Shown here: positions 2,194 to 36,891 of the stretch, piece after piece
How the letters are laid out: each line of letters begins with the position of its first letter
How positions within the stretch are numbered: position 1 is the stretch's first letter
Position numbers and translations under genes: made by a program
NCBI RefSeq assembly: GCF_023913775.1
Contig: NZ_JAMXAX010000017.1
Coordinates: 1 to 64,000 of the forward strand
Length of the DNA stretch: 64,000 nucleotides
Source of the DNA: Acidovorax facilis
GTDB taxonomy: Bacteria; Pseudomonadota; Gammaproteobacteria; Burkholderiales; Burkholderiaceae_C
Reading direction: 5' to 3'
The notes under the pieces: generated by a model
Told to the model about the DNA's origin: nothing
Database searches by the model: none
What the model saw: only the letters and a program-made list of their open reading frames with translations

Positions 2194-3834
2194 ATGCGCA
2201 AATACCTCTGGCTATCTTTGACCTGTGCGGCCCTGCTCGCCAGTTGCGGCGGCGGCTCGTCCGACGGCGAAGACGTGGGCCCCGCCCCTGGCGTACAGCA
2301 ATACCCCGGCGGCATATGGGAGGGCACGGTGGGCACCGGCGCTGCGCAGCGGCAGGTGGTGGGCTACATCGATCCCGGCCCGCTGGGCACCGGGGGCGAG
2401 TTCTACATGGCACGCGAGGCCCCGGGCGCAGCGGGCTTTGATGCGATTTACGGGCGTTTGAATGTCAACGTCACGGCAGTGCTGGCCACTGGCGTCACGT
2501 ACTACTCGGTCCAGGACGGCAAATTTGCCACGGGCCTGACGCTGCGTGGCACGGCATCGAACAGCGGCAAGATCGGCCGCACCGACGGCATCAGCGGCAA
2601 TTATTCCGACCCGGTGCAGACGGCGGCTGCGTCTGGCGCGGTGGTGCCGATCAAGCTCTCGTACAGCAGCCTGAACTTCCACCCCGCACGCGCGAGCCTG
2701 GTCGAGGGCACCTACCGGGGTACCGGCCTGTTTGGCGGTGGATGGGTGCTCACCGTCACCCCACAGGGCCAGCTCTCGGGCCGTATCGGCGGCTGCCTGG
2801 TCACGGGCACAGCCACGCCACGCGCCGCAGACTCTCCGCTGTATTCGATGACGCTCAATCTGTCGGGCGACACCACCTCCTGCGAGGCCAGCGGCACGCA
2901 GCAATCCGGCATCGCCGTGCTGCGGTTTGATGCGGCAGGGGTGCCCAACGGCATCTGGGTGTTCACGCGCAATGCAACGGGTCCGAACAACACCTTCACC
3001 CTCAACGGCATTGCCGACCCCCGCACCACCGTGCCGCCTTCCACGACGCCGTTGTCGGTGGCAGGCAACTGGCAGGGCTCCTTCACGCTGCCTGCAGGCG
3101 TGATTGGCGATACGACCGTCTGGGGCAGCGTGCTGCCGGACGGCGGCCTGTTCTTCTACACCAACAGCAGCCTGGACCACAACGCGCTGTATGGCCGCCT
3201 TATCCGCTACGAGAACAACGTCACGAACAACCGTTTTGTGACGGCCAACGACGGCGTGTTCTTCAACCGCCTGCTGGCCAACACGGGCGCCTACAACGAG
3301 TCCGTGCTGATCGACGGCACGCTCCAAAGTGGCGATGGCACCAGCACCGCCGGCCTGTTCAGCGGCAGCTTCAGCTACCCAACGCAGCCAGGCGGTTTCC
3401 CCACCCGCTTCAGCGTCACACCCGACCCGCTGTACGCCCTGCCCTCCGGCAAGGTGCCCAACGCGGCCTTGATCATCGGCACCTACAAGATGGCAGGCAC
3501 GGGTTTTGGGGGCGACACCACAACGCTGACGGTGTTTGCCGATGGCGCGATCACCGGCCTGACCACCAGCGGCTGTGAAGTGGCGGGCAAGCTCCTGGGC
3601 GAACTGGGCAGTGGTCTGAACCTGTACCGCGTCGAGGCATTCGGCTACCTCAACAGCCCCAACGCACCCATCACCTGCGGCCTGTCCTCGGGCCCGCCGC
3701 AGTCCGGCTCGGCATCGGCACAGTTCGATGCGAATGGCAAGGTCATTGGCCTGCGCATTCTGACTGCCGGGTTGTCCGTGGCTGGCACACGTGCCCACAC
3801 CGTGTTTGTGGGCGCCAAGCAGACCACGCCGTAA
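2194..3834 (+). CDS. Lipoprotein with duplicated A-B-A-B domain layout
   Basis: A 546-residue putative lipoprotein. The N-terminus MRKYLWLSLTCAALLASC has a lipobox (LASC) with Cys18 as the lipidation site, followed by a Gly/Ser linker, which chose ATG 2194 over the longer open frame. Behind it I see two module types that alternate. Module A starts at GGIWEGTV (about residue 39) and again at GNWQGSF (about 291). Module B starts at GTYRGTG (about 172) and again at GTYKMAGTG (about 429). The modules share YGRL..., LT-V...G-ITG/LSG and SGC/GGC patterns and look like beta-rich repeats. No enzymatic motif is visible, and I know no name for the family. It is convergent with bcsC. Confidence 0.75.
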   Translation: MRKYLWLSLTCAALLASCGGGSSDGEDVGPAPGVQQYPGGIWEGTVGTGAAQRQVVGYIDPGPLGTGGEFYMAREAPGAAGFDAIYGRLNVNVTAVLATGVTYYSVQDGKFATGLTLRGTASNSGKIGRTDGISGNYSDPVQTAAASGAVVPIKLSYSSLNFHPARASLVEGTYRGTGLFGGGWVLTVTPQGQLSGRIGGCLVTGTATPRAADSPLYSMTLNLSGDTTSCEASGTQQSGIAVLRFDAAGVPNGIWVFTRNATGPNNTFTLNGIADPRTTVPPSTTPLSVAGNWQGSFTLPAGVIGDTTVWGSVLPDGGLFFYTNSSLDHNALYGRLIRYENNVTNNRFVTANDGVFFNRLLANTGAYNESVLIDGTLQSGDGTSTAGLFSGSFSYPTQPGGFPTRFSVTPDPLYALPSGKVPNAALIIGTYKMAGTGFGGDTTTLTVFADGAITGLTTSGCEVAGKLLGELGSGLNLYRVEAFGYLNSPNAPITCGLSSGPPQSGSASAQFDANGKVIGLRILTAGLSVAGTRAHTVFVGAKQTTP

Positions 3835-3994
3835 CGGCAGGGAGCACCCCTCGCGCTAGGCGGGGGGTGCTGCAACCGGGCAATCACTGCGGTGCCCCTG
3901 TGATCGGCCCATGGGCCTTGGCTTACAGCGCCTTTACCCCGCGCAAGCGCCATGTGGCACGCAGACAGTGCTCCCGCAACAAGCGGGTTGCCCA

Positions 3995-4036
3995 TAAAAA
4001 AGGCCCGTCGCACGTGAAGTGCGACGGGCCTTTTTT
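3995..4036. terminator. Bidirectional terminator between the lipoprotein gene and bcsC
   Basis: A 12-bp perfect stem GGCCCGTCGCAC / GTGCGACGGGCC (4002-4013 and 4019-4030) with loop GTGAA is flanked by seven A on the left and six T on the right. It can therefore stop transcription from both converging genes. Confidence 0.95.
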
Positions 4037-4073
4037 GTGGCTTGCAGAGAGCGGGTGAGCGCCCTGGGAAAGT

Positions 4074-7000
4074 TCAGTAGCTATACGGTGACCGCAGCGG
4101 GTTGACAGGGAACGCCTGCAGGCCGTTGTAGGGCTGGAAGGCATAGCGCACATACAGGCCGCCCGCAAATTCGCGGTAGTTGCGTGCGTTGTTGAGCGAC
4201 AGGTGTCCACCCACGAACACCTGCGGATGCATCTGGTATTCCATGGCTGCACCCAGGTTGTATCCCAGGCCCGTGCGGGACTGGCCGGGGTAGATGGCCG
4301 TGGCGCCCGTTTCGCCAAAGGCCAGCGCGTCGGCCGCTGCCTGGACGGCAGACACCTGCCGCGATGGGCTGTTGGGGAAGTACGGCGCCGCATCTTCCTT
4401 GAAATACTGCACGCCCACCGAGCCCTTGAGCTGGTAGGACAGGCGGCCATTGCGCTGCGCCCATTCGACGGGAATGCCAAAGGACACGAACTGCTGGGGA
4501 CTGAAATAGCCACCGTGGCCCACCGTGAAGTAGCGCAGGTTGCGCTGGTACGACAGCCCCGTAAAGCTCAGGCCCGCCGTCAGGTCGGCGTTCGATGTGC
4601 GGTGCACATGCCAGTACATCCCGCCACCCAGCTCGGCCCGCGCATTGCTGCGCACGCGGGTACCGGTCAGGCCATGCAGCGAACCGTACCCATAGATCCC
4701 CAGTTCACCATCGTCCCAGGTCAGATCAACGCGGCCCCCCGAAGCGGACACGCCGCCCCAGCGGTCGCCGGTCCGGGCATCACGGACACCGGCAAACGAC
4801 AGCAGGCTGTCGGTCACCGGGCGGCGCGAGAGGTCCACGGCCACGGTCAGGTCGTCGGTGAGGGCGGTGCGGTATCTCGCGCCTGCCGTCACATCGGACT
4901 GGCCGAAGCCCAGCGGCGTGCTGCCGATGTCTGCCCGGAAGCCTCCGCTTTCATAGCCTACGCTCAGGCCGACACCGCTGTCGCTTTGCGAGCCCGCACC
5001 GCGTTCGGGCATGGCCAGGGCCGTGACCGGACCACCACCAAAGCGGCTGATGGTGCCGTAGGGCGAGCCGGGCGAACCTGCGCTGGCGCCCGTGGGCGTT
5101 ACGCCCAGCAGCAGGTGACCGTCACCCACGCTCATCTTGAGCTGCACGGGCGCTTCGATCTCGGATAGCTGGCTCATGCCCGCCTCGCCCTGCCGTGCGC
5201 GCGCAACTGCGCCCACGGAGAACGAAGAAATCTGGCTTTGCTGCACTTCGCGCAGCTCGTCGCGGGCCGTGCGGGGCCGCGTGGGGTCGGGCACGTTGCC
5301 CAGCCCCGCCGTGGACCAGGCAGAAGGTGCTGCAGGAGCAGGCATTGCGCGTTGCGCAGGCAAGGACTGGGCGCCGCCCGCATACCCACCACCATAGGCC
5401 TGTGCAGGCGTGTAGTAGCCCGCCGCAGCCGGGGCCGGAGCGCCCATCGGCTGCATGGGTTGTGCAGGCGGCACGTACACAGGTGCCATGGCCGGCGCCG
5501 CCGCAGTGGCACCCACCGACCGTGGGGTCGAAGAAGGCAGTGCCGCCGCGTTGCGCCGCGCAGCGCTGGTCGAAGCCGCCGTGTCAGCCGCCGCCACCGG
5601 GCTGGACGCTTCGGGGTAGTAACTGGCGGGCGTCATGGGAGCGGCCTGCGCATAGGCCTGCGGCGCCGTGCCAAAGCGGCTTGCACCGGCCGGGTCGGGA
5701 ATGTAGAGGCCTGCAGGTGCGTTGTTGCTGCGCGCTACTGGCTGGGGCGCGTACTGCTGGGGGGTGTAGCCCACCGGCGACCGTGCGACGGCTGCGGCAC
5801 CAGGCACTGACAGGCCGCCCCCGGCACGCTGCTGCAACGCCGCGCGCTGGGCAAATGGATTGCCCGAACGTGCAGGCCCCGCCGCCACGCCACTGGCCGC
5901 CAGCACGGCATCGCGCTGCGCGTTTTCGGCAGCAACGGCAGCCGTGAAGAACTCGGTGGCCTTGGAATTCTTGCCCTGCGCCCGGTACAACCGACCAGCG
6001 GCCGTCAGCACTTCGGGATCACGCGGCGCGCGCGCCAGCGCCACGGACAGCAGCGACTCCGCATAGCCATAGTCCTTGGCGCCCGTGGCCATGGCTGCGG
6101 TCTGCAGGATGAGGGGCACGTCATTGGGAGACTTTTCCAGCAGCCGCGCATACAGCGCCTGCGCCTGGGCATAGTCGTTGTTGGCCGCGTACATGCGGGC
6201 CAGTGCCGCCATGGCCAGGGGCTCGTCGGGCTGCTCGGCCAGCAAGGGAACGAGCGTGTCATAGGCCGCGACCAGGTCGCCCGCCTCGCGCAGGCCATCG
6301 GCCTGGCGCACGATGTAGGCGCGGCGGATGTCGCTGAAACTCTTGCGCTCGCGGTCATTCATCGGGGCCGTCTGCAGCTGCCGCAGGATGCCCGCCAGTT
6401 CCACATCCTGCTGGGTCTTGAGCAAGGTGGCTGCGTACTGCAGGCGCAGGCCGACATCGGGCCGGGGGGTGCGCGCCAGCACCTGGCGCACCATGCCGAG
6501 TGCGCGCTGCGGATCGCCAGCGTCCGCGTAGGCCAAGGCCATGGCGCCCAGCAATTCGGGGTCTTGGGTGGCAAAGGACTCGGCCTGGGCCAGGGTGGCC
6601 AGGGCTTCCGTCTGGCGACCTTCGGCCGCCAACGCCGACGCAGCCGATGCCTGCACATGCACCCACACCCGCTTTTGCAGCGCGGCGATGTCACGGGTGC
6701 GGTGCTTTTCTGGAACGCGGTCCAGCAGCGCCAAGGCGCTGGGCCAGTCACCAGCCTCCGAGGCCAGCAGGGCGCTGGCATACAGGGCCTCGGGCATGTT
6801 GGGGTTGGACAGCAACAACCCGTCCATCACGCCCCGCGCCTCGGCCACCGCGCCCATGCGCAGGTACAGGCGGGCAAGGTCCAGCCGCACCCAGGGGCTG
6901 GCCGGATCGTTCAGCAGGGCATCTTCCAGCGCTGCGCGGGCAGCGGCGGTATCGCCACGCTCCGTCGCTGCGCGGGCCTGGCCCAATGCCTGCGCAGCAC

Positions 7001-29998: not shown

Positions 29999-30038
29999 GC
30001 CAACGATCCATACACCACCCACGATGAAGGAGACACCC

Positions 30039-31013
30039 ATGAAAAAACGCACCCTGCTGCACTGCGCCCTGGCGCTGGCGACCGCCCCCCTGGCGTTCGG
30101 CGCTGCTGCGCAAGACTTTCCGCCCAAGAAGCCCGTCACGCTCGTCGTGGGCTTTGCCGCAGGCGGTGCAGCCGACGCGGCGGCGCGACTGATTGCCAAG
30201 AAGCTGGGTGAGAACATCGGCCAGTCGGTGGTGGTGGACAACAAGGGCGGCGCAGGCGGCAATATCGCCCACCAGTTCGTGGCCAATGCGGCACCCGACG
30301 GCACGGTGCTGCTGTTCGGCTCGGTGGGCCCGCTCACCATTGCGCCGCACTTGATGAAACTCACCTATGACCCGTTCAAGGACCTGGCGGCGATCTCAGG
30401 CGGCGTGAACTTCCCCAACGTGCTGGTCGTGCACAAGGCTGCAGGCGCAAAGACGCTGGCAGAGTTTGTGCAGCTGTCCAAGAAGAAGCCTGGCAGCGTT
30501 GACTTTGCCTCCACGGGCGCGGGCTCGGCATCGCACCTGGCAGGCGAGCTGTTCAACCAGCGGGCGGCCATCGACATGACCCACGTGCCCTACAAAGGTG
30601 GGGCACCCGCCTTGCAGGATTTGCTGGGCGAGCGCATCACCTCCTACTTTGCAGCCCCACCCACGGCCCTGCCGCACATCGAAACGGGCAGGCTGATCCC
30701 GCTGGCCACCACGGGTCTCACGCGGCCAGCCTATCTGCCCAATATCCCCACCGTGGCGGAATCGGGCTTTCCGGGCTTTGAGGCGCTCAACTGGTATGCG
30801 TTTGTGGCGCCGGGCAAAACGCCGGTGCCGCTGCTGGAGCGCTGGAACCAGGAGATCGTCAAGGTGCTCAACGACCCGGCCGTGAAGGACGCACTGAACA
30901 AGCACGGCCTGACGCCCCAGCCCACCTCACGCGCGGAACTCTCCACCTTCATGAAGAAGGAGTCGACCCAGTGGGCTGCCATCATCAAGGAGCGCAAGCT
31001 CACGGCGGACTGA
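30039..31013 (+). CDS. Bug/TctC-type binding protein of the tcu operon
   Basis: A 324-residue TctC-family periplasmic receptor with a signal peptide (MKKRTLLHCALALATA to GAAAQ). PVTLVVGFAAGGAAD and NKGGAGGNIAHQFVA form the ligand loops and PAYLPNIPTVAESGF the late motif. ATG 30039 has AAGGAGA six bases before it; the in-frame ATG 30024 does not. It is the third gene behind tcuA and tcuB, so tricarballylate or aconitate is the likely ligand. The matching TctA/TctB permease is not encoded in the window. Confidence 0.92.
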   Translation: MKKRTLLHCALALATAPLAFGAAAQDFPPKKPVTLVVGFAAGGAADAAARLIAKKLGENIGQSVVVDNKGGAGGNIAHQFVANAAPDGTVLLFGSVGPLTIAPHLMKLTYDPFKDLAAISGGVNFPNVLVVHKAAGAKTLAEFVQLSKKKPGSVDFASTGAGSASHLAGELFNQRAAIDMTHVPYKGGAPALQDLLGERITSYFAAPPTALPHIETGRLIPLATTGLTRPAYLPNIPTVAESGFPGFEALNWYAFVAPGKTPVPLLERWNQEIVKVLNDPAVKDALNKHGLTPQPTSRAELSTFMKKESTQWAAIIKERKLTAD

Positions 31014-33014: not shown

Positions 33015-34013
33015 ATGCCCACCCCCATGAACCGCCGCCGCTTTATCGCATCGACCAGCGCCGTGACGGGCGCCATTGCCCTGCCGGCACTGGCCCAGGC
33101 GCCCGACCGCTATCCCACACGTCCGATCACACTGGTGGTGCCGTTTCCGCCCGGAGGCGCCGTAGACAACTCCGGCCGGGCGATAGCCGACAGGCTGGGC
33201 CGAGTGCTGGGGCAGCCCGTGATTGTGGAAAACAAAGGGGGCGCTGGCGGCACCATCGGCACCACGCAGGTGGCCAAGGCCCAGCCCGATGGCTACACGC
33301 TGATCGTCACCTCGCAGACCACGCATGTGATCAACCCCGCCCTGTCGGCCAGTCTGCCCTACGACGCGGTCAATGACTTCGCCCCCATCACGCTGATTGA
33401 TCGCCTGGCCAATGTGCTCTTGATCACCCCCGGCCTGCCCGTGAAGAACTTCGCCGAGTTCGTGAAATACGTGAAGGAGAACCCGGGCAAGCTGAACTAC
33501 GCCTCCTCGGGCAATGGCTCGCTGGCGTACCTGAGCATGGAGCTGCTCAAGGCCAAGCTGGGGCTGTCCATCACCCACATCCCATACAGGGGCGCTGGCC
33601 CGGCGCTGACAGACCTGCAGGCGGGCCAGGTGCACATGACCTGGAACAACCTGTCCTCCAACCTCAGCATGGCTCGGAACGGTCGCCTGCGCGCTCTGGC
33701 GGTGGCATCGCCAATCCGCGCTCCCCAACTGCCGGATGTCCCGACCTTCGACGAGCTGAAGTTGCCGGAGCTGAACCTGACTTCCTGGACAGGTCTTGCC
33801 GCACCTGCAAAAACGCCGGAATCCATCGTTGCGCAGCTCTACGAAGCGATGCGTACCGTGTTGCGTGATCCGCAAACACAAAGGGCATGGAATGACCGCG
33901 GCGCTATGGTCCCCGATACCGTGAAGCCCGCAGAGTTTCGCAAGGAGATTCAGCAGCGCATCGGTTTTTACAAGAACATCGTGAAGACCCACAAGATCTC
34001 CGTGGATCAATAG
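33015..34013 (+). CDS. Bug/TctC-type binding protein with twin-arginine-like signal
   Basis: A 332-residue TctC-family receptor. The leader (MNRRRFIASTSAVTGAIALPALAQ) carries RRRF, like a Tat signal. PITLVVPFPPGGAVD, NKGGAGGTIGTTQVA and APQLPDVPTFDEL are the family landmarks. It starts 21 bases after the amidohydrolase gene with AGAGGA as ribosome site. The last 100 residues carry noticeably more A/T-ending codons than the neighbouring genes. It likely binds the substrate of the amidohydrolase or a related acid. Confidence 0.9.
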   Translation: MPTPMNRRRFIASTSAVTGAIALPALAQAPDRYPTRPITLVVPFPPGGAVDNSGRAIADRLGRVLGQPVIVENKGGAGGTIGTTQVAKAQPDGYTLIVTSQTTHVINPALSASLPYDAVNDFAPITLIDRLANVLLITPGLPVKNFAEFVKYVKENPGKLNYASSGNGSLAYLSMELLKAKLGLSITHIPYRGAGPALTDLQAGQVHMTWNNLSSNLSMARNGRLRALAVASPIRAPQLPDVPTFDELKLPELNLTSWTGLAAPAKTPESIVAQLYEAMRTVLRDPQTQRAWNDRGAMVPDTVKPAEFRKEIQQRIGFYKNIVKTHKISVDQ

Positions 34014-34089
34014 TGCCCACTCCCCATCCGTGCGGAATGGGCGAAACATATCCCCGACCTCGTGCGCATGTGCGCATGTGGGCAAGCCA

Positions 34090-35763
34090 TCAGTACGTTG
34101 GAACATAGCCTTCAACAGGCCCATCCGCTCGCACCAGCCCATCATCCAGCAACTGCGCAAGCCAGCCGCCGAGCACGGTGGGGTCGCCTTGCCACAGGCC
34201 GCTGCCCAGCAGCGCCGCGCACGCGTCGTGCACCGAGGCACCGGCGTGCAGCGCTTGCACCCAGGCGGCCTCGGCCGCGTCGAGCGTGCGAAAGTGCGGC
34301 TGGTGGCCTTTGCGCCAGACCAGCAGCGTGGCCGGTGCAGGCAGGGCCACGGCCTCGGGCACGTCGTCGTCGGTATGGATGGCGTTCCACACCCCCACAA
34401 CGTTCGTCGTGATCGCGCGCAGCAAGGCGCTGGGGTGCAGTACACGAGGGCGGGTAGTCCAGGTGTCCGACGCCTGGGCTGCTGCGGGCGCCAAGGCCGC
34501 CACATCGTCGCTGTCAAAGCGGGTGCGCAGGTCCCAGTCGAGCTGGGCCAGTTCGTGCAACTCGGGGTTGTCGGGGTACGCCGCGCGCAGCGTGCCCACC
34601 AGGCCTTCGCCATAGCGGTTCAGGCTGCGCGTGCGCGGCGGATGGGCCACGGCGTAGTCGCGCGCATGGGCCTCGAAGGTGTCTGACCCCATGTAGAGGC
34701 AGGTCTTGGCATAGGTGTCGGCCAGCACATCGGCCAGCCGGGCGCGGTAGGCATGGTGGTAGATGGGCAGGCGACCTGTGACGAGGTCGTCGGGCATTTC
34801 GGGCGGCAGCGCATTCGCCAGCACGCGGTCGGCAAAGTGGCGCTGCACCACAGCCAACCCAGCCGGTCCCACTATGGGGTCCAGGGTGATGGCGGGGATG
34901 GCGACGGGCACAAAAGAGGGGACAGGCGAGGCCACATGCTCAGCGGCAATGCGGCGGGCAATGGCCATTTCATCCAGCAGTTCAGCCAGCGGCGGGATAT
35001 GGTCGTCGCGCTCGATCATCGCGGCCACAGCGCCAAAACGCTGGCAGGCCTGTGCATACAGGTCCCACACCGGCTGCGCCACAGGGTGGTCGTGCGTGTC
35101 GATGATGTGGTCGCCGTTGTCGCTGTGCCCAGCCAGGTGAATCTGCTGCACCCGCTGCGCGGGCAGGGCATGCAGATAGGTCAGTGGGTCAAAGCCATGG
35201 TTCACGCTGCTCACGTAGATGTTGTTCACATCCACCAGCAGCAGGCAGTCGGCCTCTTGCGCAATGTGGGCCAGAAACTGCCATTCACTCGCGCTGTCTT
35301 GCCGATAGCGGACGTAGCTCGACACGTTCTCCAGCACCAGCCTGCGGTCCAGCACATCCTGCGCACGGCGGATTTGCGCGATGACATGCCGTGCGGATTC
35401 GTCGGTGTAGGGCAGGGGATACAGGTCGTGCAATTGCTCGGGGCCAGGGCCCGTCCAGCACAAGTGGTCGGACACCCACAGCGGCTCGATGCGATCAGCC
35501 AGCGCCTTCACGCGCTGCAGATACGGCACATCCACGCCCTGCGAAGCACCGATGGACATGGCCACGCCATGCATGGCCACGGGGTAGTCGCGCCGGATGG
35601 CATCGAGCACCGCCAGAGGTTTTCCACCGTCGATGAGGTAGTTGTCGGTGATGATTTCCAGCCAGTCCAGTGGCTGCTTACGCGCCAGGAAATCGGCGTA
35701 GTGCTGCGTGCGCAGCCCCAGGCCAAAGCCTGTGCCGCGCGTGGCGATGGAGGTGGGCGACAT
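34090..35763 (-). CDS. Fused bufferin maturation protein: DUF692 (MNIO, BufB) plus DUF2063 (BufC)
   Basis: 557 residues. Residues 12-285 form a DUF692 domain, a TIM-barrel oxidase with two or three iron ions that modifies cysteines in peptides such as methanobactin and bufferins. Likely metal ligands are visible: His65 in MHGVAMS, Glu in LVLENVSS, Asp in LVDVNNI, His in QIHLAGH, Asp/His in IDTHDHPV, and Glu in MIERDDHIP. Residues from about 300 to 557 are a DUF2063 domain (RLPIYHHAYRARLADVLADTY, YGEGLVGTLRAAYPD), the partner that in known systems is a separate protein recognising the precursor. Here both are in one frame. The precursor gene lies upstream on the same strand with a family B repeat between. 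No DoxX gene follows. Confidence 0.9.
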   Translation of the reverse strand: MSPTSIATRGTGFGLGLRTQHYADFLARKQPLDWLEIITDNYLIDGGKPLAVLDAIRRDYPVAMHGVAMSIGASQGVDVPYLQRVKALADRIEPLWVSDHLCWTGPGPEQLHDLYPLPYTDESARHVIAQIRRAQDVLDRRLVLENVSSYVRYRQDSASEWQFLAHIAQEADCLLLVDVNNIYVSSVNHGFDPLTYLHALPAQRVQQIHLAGHSDNGDHIIDTHDHPVAQPVWDLYAQACQRFGAVAAMIERDDHIPPLAELLDEMAIARRIAAEHVASPVPSFVPVAIPAITLDPIVGPAGLAVVQRHFADRVLANALPPEMPDDLVTGRLPIYHHAYRARLADVLADTYAKTCLYMGSDTFEAHARDYAVAHPPRTRSLNRYGEGLVGTLRAAYPDNPELHELAQLDWDLRTRFDSDDVAALAPAAAQASDTWTTRPRVLHPSALLRAITTNVVGVWNAIHTDDDVPEAVALPAPATLLVWRKGHQPHFRTLDAAEAAWVQALHAGASVHDACAALLGSGLWQGDPTVLGGWLAQLLDDGLVRADGPVEGYVPTY

Positions 35764-35800
35764 GTCGAAGTCAAAGTGTCAACGTGCGGGCAGTGGGCGT

Positions 35801-35955
35801 GGGCCGCCCCGCCGCGCGGGCGGTGTCCCCCTCCCACGCAGCGAGAGAGGGGCTGAGAGGCGCGGCTCCGAGCCTGCCTGCGCAGGCTTGGACTTCCTCG
35901 AAGGGCTGCCCGCTCTGGGGGCCGCACGGAGCGGCAAAGCCGCTCAGGGGGAGCT
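35801..35955. repeat. Family B GC-rich repeat between bufA2 and the DUF692-DUF2063 gene
   Basis: It contains GGGCCGCCCCGCCGCGCGGG, GTGTCCCCCTCCCACGCAGC, the palindrome GCCTGCCTGCGCAGGC and, at its right end, GCGGCAAAGCCGCTCAGGGGGA. It fills nearly the whole 192-bp space between the two genes of the bufferin locus and could attenuate or stabilise the transcript. Confidence 0.75.
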
Positions 35956-36246
35956 TCACTGGATATCGCCGATGGTGCCCTTCTCCATCAGGCACTGAGC
36001 GGCTGTCTTGGCCTTGAAGCCGTGGCCCTTGCAAGCGTTCTGGCCCTTGCAGCTGTGCTCGGCCGTGGAGCAGTCGCTATTGCCCTTGCAGTCGTGCACG
36101 TTGTAGCAGTGCACCTTGTCGTTGGCGCCGATGGCGGCGCCTTTGGAGCCCTTGGGCGCGTCGGCTGCAAAGCTGGTGGATGCCAGTGCCAGCAGCGCGG
36201 CAGACAGGGCGAAAGATGCAGTGGTCTTGGTGTTCGTGGACAGCAT
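35956..36246 (-). CDS. Bufferin precursor, BufA2-like six-cysteine secreted peptide
   Basis: 96 residues. Residues 1-27 form a Sec signal peptide ending TSFA-AD, unusual for RiPPs but known for bufferins. After a short Lys/Gly linker comes a core with six cysteines at 47, 53, 59, 66, 72 and 85. Their repeated CKG context (HDCKG, HSCKG, NACKG-G) matches the BufA2 family. In studied bufferins the oxidase BufB converts some of these cysteines to thiooxazoles, and the exported product binds copper. The gene lies upstream of the BufB-BufC fusion gene, and an ECF-type promoter lies 84 bases before its start. It carries AACTCCG/GGAGTTA as ribosome site. Confidence 0.88.
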   Translation of the reverse strand: MLSTNTKTTASFALSAALLALASTSFAADAPKGSKGAAIGANDKVHCYNVHDCKGNSDCSTAEHSCKGQNACKGHGFKAKTAAQCLMEKGTIGDIQ

Positions 36247-36329
36247 GGCGGGTAACTCCGTAGGCGTTAAGGGATGAGTAATCAGGTGGTTAGATCGCGC
36301 TGCACCGTGCCGCGCTCTCTGCCTGGTAA

Positions 36330-36355
36330 TTCGTCCCCCGCACGCTGCGGGTTAC
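36330..36355 (-). promoter_or_regulatory. ECF-sigma-like promoter of bufA2
   Basis: On the minus strand GTAACC (36355-36350) is followed, after exactly 16 bases, by CGAA (36333-36330). This is the layout of ECF sigma promoters. From memory it equals the motif reported for sigma-F of Caulobacter, which controls a bufferin operon. The predicted start of transcription near 36323 leaves a leader of roughly 77 bases. Confidence 0.65.
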
Positions 36356-36393
36356 ATGCAGTCCAAAAAACTTTTTTGCGTGGTGCCTCGGCG

Positions 36394-36891
36394 CTATTGC
36401 GCAGAGGGTTCGGTCACCGAAATGTCGGTGTGCACCAGCGTCAGCGGAAACCGCTGGCCCGCCAGGTAGTCCTCCAGGCAGCGCAGCAGCAGGGGGCTGC
36501 GATGGCGCTCGGGGCAGGCGCGGATCTCATCGACCGTGAGCCACAGCGTGCGCACGATGCCGGTGTCGAGCGTGCGCCAGTCGTGGTGCGTGCCCAGCGA
36601 GCCCGCAAACGCAAAGCGCATGTAGGTGATGTCGTCGCCCGTGCGCGTCTTGGTGAAGCGGTTGAGGTACACGCCGATCAGCGCCGTGGGCTCGAAGTCG
36701 TGCGCGGTTTCTTCCAGCACCTCGCGGGCGCAGGCCTGGATGGGCGATTCGCCCGGGTCCAGGTGGCCGGCAGGGTTGTTGAGCTTGAGGCCGTCGGTGG
36801 TTTCTTCCTCGACCAGCAGAAAGCGGCCATCGCGCTCGATGAGGGCGGCCACGGTGACGTTGGGTTTCCAGCGGTGGGGCATGGCGCGCAT
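36394..36891 (-). CDS. Nudix hydrolase, NudJ-like
   Basis: 165 residues with a clear Nudix box GHLDPGESPIQACAREVLEET at about residues 38-58 (Gly, Glu and REVLEE metal-binding pattern). The surrounding LLVEEETTDGLKLNNPAGHL resembles NudJ, a phosphatase of thiamine pyrophosphate and nucleotide diphosphates. ATG 36891 overlaps the stop of the GNAT gene by one base (TAATG) and is preferred; MPHRW three codons later is an alternative. The open frame extends further upstream only as a shadow of the GNAT gene. Confidence 0.9.
   Translation of the reverse strand: MRAMPHRWKPNVTVAALIERDGRFLLVEEETTDGLKLNNPAGHLDPGESPIQACAREVLEETAHDFEPTALIGVYLNRFTKTRTGDDITYMRFAFAGSLGTHHDWRTLDTGIVRTLWLTVDEIRACPERHRSPLLLRCLEDYLAGQRFPLTLVHTDISVTEPSAQ

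Follow-up and report, generated by a model that had tools for sequence, protein, structure and literature searches.

Two adjacent genes on the minus strand make up the locus under study, which lies in a window (the whole 64,000-nucleotide stretch of Acidovorax facilis DNA that was analysed). One encodes a bufferin-2 type precursor (bufA2) and the other, starting 192 bp downstream, encodes a single chain (bufBC) in which an MNIO oxidase is followed by its DUF2063 partner. The features are:

34090..35763, minus strand: bufBC fusion gene, a single open frame of 557 codons
35956..36246, minus strand: bufA2 precursor gene, with a 96-residue product containing six Cys (NCBIfam NF050166)
34945..35727, minus strand: MNIO (PF05114/DUF692, BufB) domain, residues 13-273, from Pfam, NCBIfam and fold
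34858..34944, minus strand: Ala/Pro-rich linker, residues ~274-302, from composition, variable length and low pLDDT
34597..34848, minus strand: DUF2063 (PF09836) domain, residues 306-389, from Pfam
34126..34464, minus strand: RRE-type region, residues ~434-546, from fold matches to the model of the C half
33015-34013, plus strand: TctC-like gene, the next gene downstream, labelled by reading its translation
ending beyond 36390, upstream of bufA2: NUDIX-like gene, labelled by reading its translation

The first-pass annotation had placed oxidase and partner in one intact 557-codon frame next to the precursor gene and had expected a domain search of the product to return PF05114 and then PF09836; it would have given up this reading on a stop or frameshift between the domains or on a C half lacking DUF2063. 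The frame is free of internal stops, the two Pfam domains follow each other in the expected order and above their cut-offs, the adjoining gene is a BufA2 precursor by its family model, and neither of the two contrary findings was made.

Since the genes that flank the pair are TctC-like, on the other strand, and NUDIX-like, the unit was taken to be bufA2-bufBC alone. Promoter and terminator scans of 33900-36500 detected nothing, and the folding of the RNA between bufA2 and bufBC is unremarkable (z -1.3). Downstream of bufBC the plus strand carries two TctC/Bug-like solute receptor genes (30024-31013 and 33015-34013, both labels read from translations). A dispersed repeat lies in the bufA2-bufBC gap (35775-35955); scoring 40 of 94 candidates gave at least 23 places in the genome that match it, this one among them. 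Across the loci of the genus (L001-L018) bufA2 and the start of the oxidase domain are between 80 and 231 nt apart, so the repeat may have been inserted after the fusion.

The bufA2 product scores 98.2 bits against the Cu_RiPP_BufA2 model (NF050166, cut-off 60), has an N-terminus that by eye is hydrophobic and Sec-like, and carries its six Cys at a spacing of 5-5-6-5-12. All 35 distinct precursors from fused loci share this spacing, and it is also the commonest one where the genes are split, found in 85 of 121 distinct precursors when every kind is counted, those with four Cys among them; the substrate family is unaltered by the fusion. At one fused locus (L037) tandem BufA2 genes (600-825 and 1099-1324) stand ahead of bufBC, and the fused enzyme there may serve two precursors.

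The same genome holds the fused Buf2 system side by side with a Buf1 system of separate genes. The Buf1 set (L197, G000:C188:10500-19500, at ~3270-5630) consists of a four-Cys precursor, an MNIO, a DUF2063 protein and DoxX, and upstream of it on the other strand lies a gene that reads in translation as sigma-factor-like. At none of 21 fused or 55 split Buf2 loci with at least 1 kb of downstream sequence was a same-strand DoxX found in the first 2.5 kb, although a DoxX-like match lies elsewhere in the stretch at eight of 80 named loci (the best 80 of 574). A loss of DoxX tied to the fusion was rejected, because the gene is absent downstream of the split Buf2 loci too.

Oxidase half, linker and partner half

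The N-terminal half of BufBC matches PF05114 over residues 13-273 (E 2.3e-106) and reaches 367.4 bits against the BufB model MNIO_BufB (NF050167, cut-off 310). Its scores against the HvfB model (NF003818; 255.4 bits, cut-off 360) and the MbnB equivalog (TIGR04159; 63.1 bits, cut-off 325) stay below the cut-offs, and those against the ApyH and ChrH NCBIfam models fall far short. Transfer of the ligand positions listed for VcMbnB (PMC8888699) through an alignment to 7dz9 gives predicted iron ligands at all eight positions (H65, H100, E145, D178, N181, H209, D222 and E251), while H224 is the counterpart of a further loop histidine of VcMbnB. These nine positions do not vary among the 12 fused proteins in alignment A1, drawn from 38 distinct ones, and the annotated role of His65 as a metal ligand agrees with its placement on a VcMbnB ligand. 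From family and ligand set we infer that the MNIO half would oxidise Cys of BufA. Installation of 5-thiooxazoles has been suggested broadly for PME1-dependent MNIOs (PMC12668002). That the fused enzyme might mature six-Cys BufA2 by a chemistry other than thiooxazole formation, or change only some of the Cys, would sit well with the description of other MNIO groups as not isofunctional with the bufferin ones (PMC12452194), and no structure of a Buf2 product was found in the literature examined; we nevertheless judge it unlikely, because the MNIO half exceeds the BufB cut-off and lies far below those for MbnB, ApyH and ChrH.

An AlphaFold2 model of the whole chain has a mean pLDDT of 92.9 and a pTM of 0.89. 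A structure search with this model listed 50 matches, which were MNIO chains or enzymes of other kinds such as sugar epimerases; among the matches listed the alignments fell on the N half, so the C half was modelled by itself. In the N half, the matches to TglHI chain B, 3BWW and MbnB chains have Z of 26-28. Between the halves, at residues 281-300, pLDDT falls to 67-70; over the fused loci the linker is rich in Ala (25.7%) and Pro (14.9%) and variable in length, and a conserved internal start with a Shine-Dalgarno-like stretch was not seen across them.

The C-terminal half matches PF09836 over residues 306-389 at 61.1 bits (cut-off 27.2), as do 46 of 46 partner halves in alignment A4. The NGO1945_C family (PF22106) gives 20 bits at residues 464-540, under the Pfam cut-off of 27; such weak matches are common, with 14 of the 46 partner halves in A4 matching at E<=0.01. 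The partner half scores 28.8 bits against the HvfC equivalog (NF050145), below its cut-off of 142. A search of the PDB with the single sequence of the partner half returned no match at E<=1, and a profile search returned 3DEE as its only match (E 0.009). The model of the C half finds the same entry, NGO1945, as its best structure match (Z 14.8, rmsd 3.2 over 194 residues at 12% identity), followed over most of its length by TglHI chain A, which we take to be TglI (Z 13.7 and 13.3), values to be read against the structure tool's warning that for helical folds Z up to ~13 is possible by chance. Residues 427-546 of the model resemble the RREs of TbiB1 and PqqD (Z 4-6), so that an RRE-type C-terminal domain is recognised by fold, without an over-cut-off Pfam match; MbnC chains show a weak likeness (Z about 5). 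These fold matches to 3DEE, to TglHI chain A and to the RREs indicate that the C half, as modelled, is a complete DUF2063-RRE partner, and the complete DUF2063 part of the first-pass annotation is upheld by the Pfam match together with the partner fold.

NGO1945 was first proposed to bind DNA (PMC2954202), and PF09836 is still described in Pfam as putatively DNA-binding, from which one might argue that DUF2063 is a regulator and that the fusion couples the oxidase to transcription control. We regard this as highly improbable, since later work treats such proteins as MNIO partners with RREs (PMC12452194, PMC13419390) and the C half also resembles the partner chain of TglHI.

Distribution, selection and origin of the fused gene

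Within the genus an MNIO match is present in 37 of 47 genomes and the full-length fusion in 15 of the 47, the genome studied here included; the 14 further fused matches are 61-89% identical to it. The remaining MNIO matches of the genus show 38-46% identity, and all 16 distinct loci inspected among them (17 rows; L002 = L003) have a four-Cys precursor. In a family sample of 399 genomes 75 match at E<=1e-70, and 15 of these are fused, from 13 genera including our own; this count comes from inspection of all listed matches whose open frames reach 500 aa, and it may miss genes cut at contig ends. Seven of the family matches with open frames of at least 500 were rejected as possible fusions, being split genes by their sequence. 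The order sample (399 genomes, 42 matching at E<=1e-100) holds four fused cases, namely the genome studied here and three from one genus of another family; the oxidase domain of one of these three is identical, and that of another nearly identical, to that of Chitinimonas viridis. In the phylum sample (398 genomes, 24 matching at E<=1e-90) the genome studied here is the sole fused case.

Among the best 80 of 574 named matches, 22 are fused (Parerythrobacter L084, discussed below, included), with carriers that include Acidovorax, Inhella, Chitinimonas, Ideonella and one Aquabacterium; the closest records in these 80 are mostly Acidovorax, with HMWF029 at 88%. HMWF029 and genus member G028 have identical oxidase domains. 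The fusion is not fixed within the groups that carry it: unfused matches occur under the same genus codes, for example on inspection G460 and G653 (g162), and by short open frames G194 and G277 (g22) and G303 (g77). One genome (G214) has a fused BufBC (L039) and, on another contig (C38:23477-24298), a second match of 58% identity whose 420-aa open frame is too short for a fusion. Of the 194 locus rows, duplicates included, 55 are fused and 131 split; in 7 more the split genes share a frame, and 1 has no partner. The rows contain 171 distinct oxidase sequences, of which 38 are fused.

Purifying selection acts on both halves. From 91 pairs among 14 genus sequences the median dN/dS is 0.12 in the oxidase and 0.28 in the partner, and it is 0.49 in the linker, where dS was saturated in 10 of the 91 pairs. 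Relaxed constraint on the partner after tethering was considered and rejected: it would raise the ratio of partner to oxidase divergence in fused loci, and the medians (2.9 over 18 disjoint fused pairs and 2.7 over 51 split ones, with L084 excluded) do not differ significantly (P 0.36). In the closest band (oxidase distance 0.02-0.1), taking all pairs, which share sequences, the medians are 3.6 for fused (47) and 2.17 for split loci (12). These values also bear on whether the partner half is a decaying passenger, with the MNIO half working alone or with another partner. The greater divergence of the partner half and its weak RRE match would be in keeping with decay, but its dN/dS, its confident fold in the model and a divergence ratio like that of split systems argue against it, and elsewhere in the genome DUF2063 is matched only inside the separate Buf1 set; we consider decay very improbable. 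The oxidase-partner fusion beside a bufferin-type precursor is, on this evidence, a conserved gene under selection.

The ancestry of the fusion was followed in trees of both halves. In an oxidase-domain tree of 161 rows, with Buf1-type rows thinned to five, the fused label requires 2 changes against ~34 with shuffled labels, and 36 fused rows form one clade (SH-aLRT 93). Beside this clade, in an open fork shared with three split loci, stands L079. The MAG that holds this fused BufBC bears the label Alphaproteobacteria, and the sequence adjoins an otherwise Burkholderiales-like fused clade, which points to either a transfer or a mislabelled bin. A careful oxidase tree of 73 of the 161 rows (24 of 38 fused and 49 of 123 split) unites the 23 fused rows other than L084 in one clade (98/82); its sister group (98/96) consists of the three split loci of that fork, which are of the Methyloversatilis kind. 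A quick tree built from the partner halves of these 73 rows places the identical 23 fused rows on one side of a branch (SH-aLRT 100). The agreement of the two trees shows that the halves travelled together, and a single origin fits every fused sequence but one (37 of 38 in the oxidase tree, 23 of 24 in the partner tree).

In split Buf2 loci, defined by an oxidase score of at least 385 bits, bufB and bufC share an ATGA overlap in 93 of 117 distinct cases. Of the 117, 103 have bufC at the ATGA-type offset, 7 have it in frame with bufB and 7 in the third frame. Because bufC of such overlapping pairs is out of frame with bufB, fusion from one of them required a change of frame. The inter-domain distance has a median of 91.5 nt in fused genes (n=38, L084 included) and 50 nt in split Buf2 genes (n=117). 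Seven loci classed as split (L048, L057, L085, L087, L146, L172 and L173) are one stop codon from fusion, bufC following directly behind the bufB stop in the same frame.

The exception to the single origin, L084 of Parerythrobacter lutipelagi, was rejected as a second, independent fusion in Alphaproteobacteria. Its bufB and bufC are joined at ~6780-6900, where the frame next to that of the linker still encodes what looks like an ordinary BufB tail with its stop codon. In the partner tree, as in the oxidase tree, it groups with split rows (L175, L193 and L194). It looks like an ordinary overlapping pair with a single frameshift, real or technical, and a sequencing error is possible.

This lookalike, and the fragmentation of our own assembly into 415 contigs, raise the question of whether an error removed a stop and a frame change between two ordinary genes here as well. 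Such an error is rejected as next to impossible, since independent genomes carry the fusion: the same frame is found in the 14 other genus genomes and in others outside the genus, the domains lie further apart than in split genes, and all fused sequences but L084 form one clade in both the careful oxidase tree and the partner tree.

Proposed working and comparison with known systems

The locus is very probably a bufferin-2 (BufA2) locus in which BufB and BufC are one protein that works as a tethered maturase. Its most likely working, by analogy, is that of BufBC or HvfBC with the partner tethered. Before export, the N-terminal (signal) part of BufA2 would be held in the cytoplasm by the RRE part of the C half, while the tethered DUF2063 part, docked on the MNIO half, would help the iron centre to reach its active mixed-valent state. 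The MNIO half would then oxidise Cys of the six-Cys core, probably to 5-thiooxazoles, and the modified BufA2 would be exported through Sec and bind copper in the periplasm.

The behaviour of the Haemophilus pair gives this scheme its background. No product is formed when HvfB or HvfC is omitted, and HvfC is required for the mixed-valent di-iron state in addition to its inferred role in substrate binding; the interaction of the two proteins is weak, and an artificial fusion was built to study the active enzyme (PMC13419390). This genetic HvfBC fusion, in the same order as here, is active and yields more product than the co-expressed pair (PMC13419390). In BufBC, fusion would make the oxidase-partner complex 1:1 and unimolecular. 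The first-pass claim that it fixes the stoichiometry and offers a model of how the halves meet is plausible, given that the artificial fusion out-yields the co-expressed pair. A further step would be to see the fusion as an adaptation and no neutral accident, in which the permanently docked partner keeps the iron mixed-valent and passes on the precursor, signal peptide still attached, quickly enough for oxidation to precede Sec export, and in which loss of the arrangement is selected against; this is possible, though we hold it to be rather doubtful. If true, the fused clade would have gained a self-sufficient, one-protein RiPP maturase.

The DUF692-DUF2063 architecture has been seen before: in a set of 216 proteins Das et al. 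(2009) counted a single one in which DUF692 precedes DUF2063 (PMC2954202). The main text of a 2025 survey of MNIO clusters, searched for fusions, names an MNIO-nitroreductase and several bufferin fusions and describes partner proteins at length, and names no MNIO-DUF2063 fusion (PMC12452194). On the range and origin of the fused clade and its link to BufA2, nothing was found in searches of open-access main text. The clade offers a natural, conserved counterpart of the laboratory-built HvfB-HvfC fusion, in 37 distinct one-chain sequences with many natural linkers next to a presumed six-Cys substrate, and some of the bacteria that carry it are named strains. BufBC could be taken directly as a construct for structural work, spectroscopy and peptide engineering. 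The split Buf1 set in the same genome makes a within-genome comparison possible.

Among the closest known systems is bufferin 2 with separate BufB and BufC, which shares the precursor family, the commonest Cys spacing, the MNIO and partner families, the gene order A-B-C and the lack of any DoxX found downstream, but uses two genes, mostly overlapping at ATGA, where BufBC is a single chain whose linker varies. The same order of oxidase then partner is seen in HvfB/HvfC of Haemophilus (oxazolin) and in the engineered HvfBC (PMC13419390); the engineered protein differs in being artificial, in lacking a linker and in a substrate with AEGKCGEGKCG motifs, and the C half of BufBC does not reach the HvfC cut-off. 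MbnB/MbnC of methanobactin shares the oxidase fold and iron ligand set, whereas the MbnB score of BufBC is 63.1 against a cut-off of 325 and MbnC only weakly resembles the partner half. MovX is said to be an MNIO with a fused C-terminal RRE, but by its description the RRE domain alone is fused, which sets it apart from the whole DUF2063-RRE partner of BufBC (PMC13419390). Finally, the DUF692-DUF2063 protein of the 2009 Pfam study has the same domain order as BufBC but was counted there as an architecture, unnamed and without function or precursor (PMC2954202).
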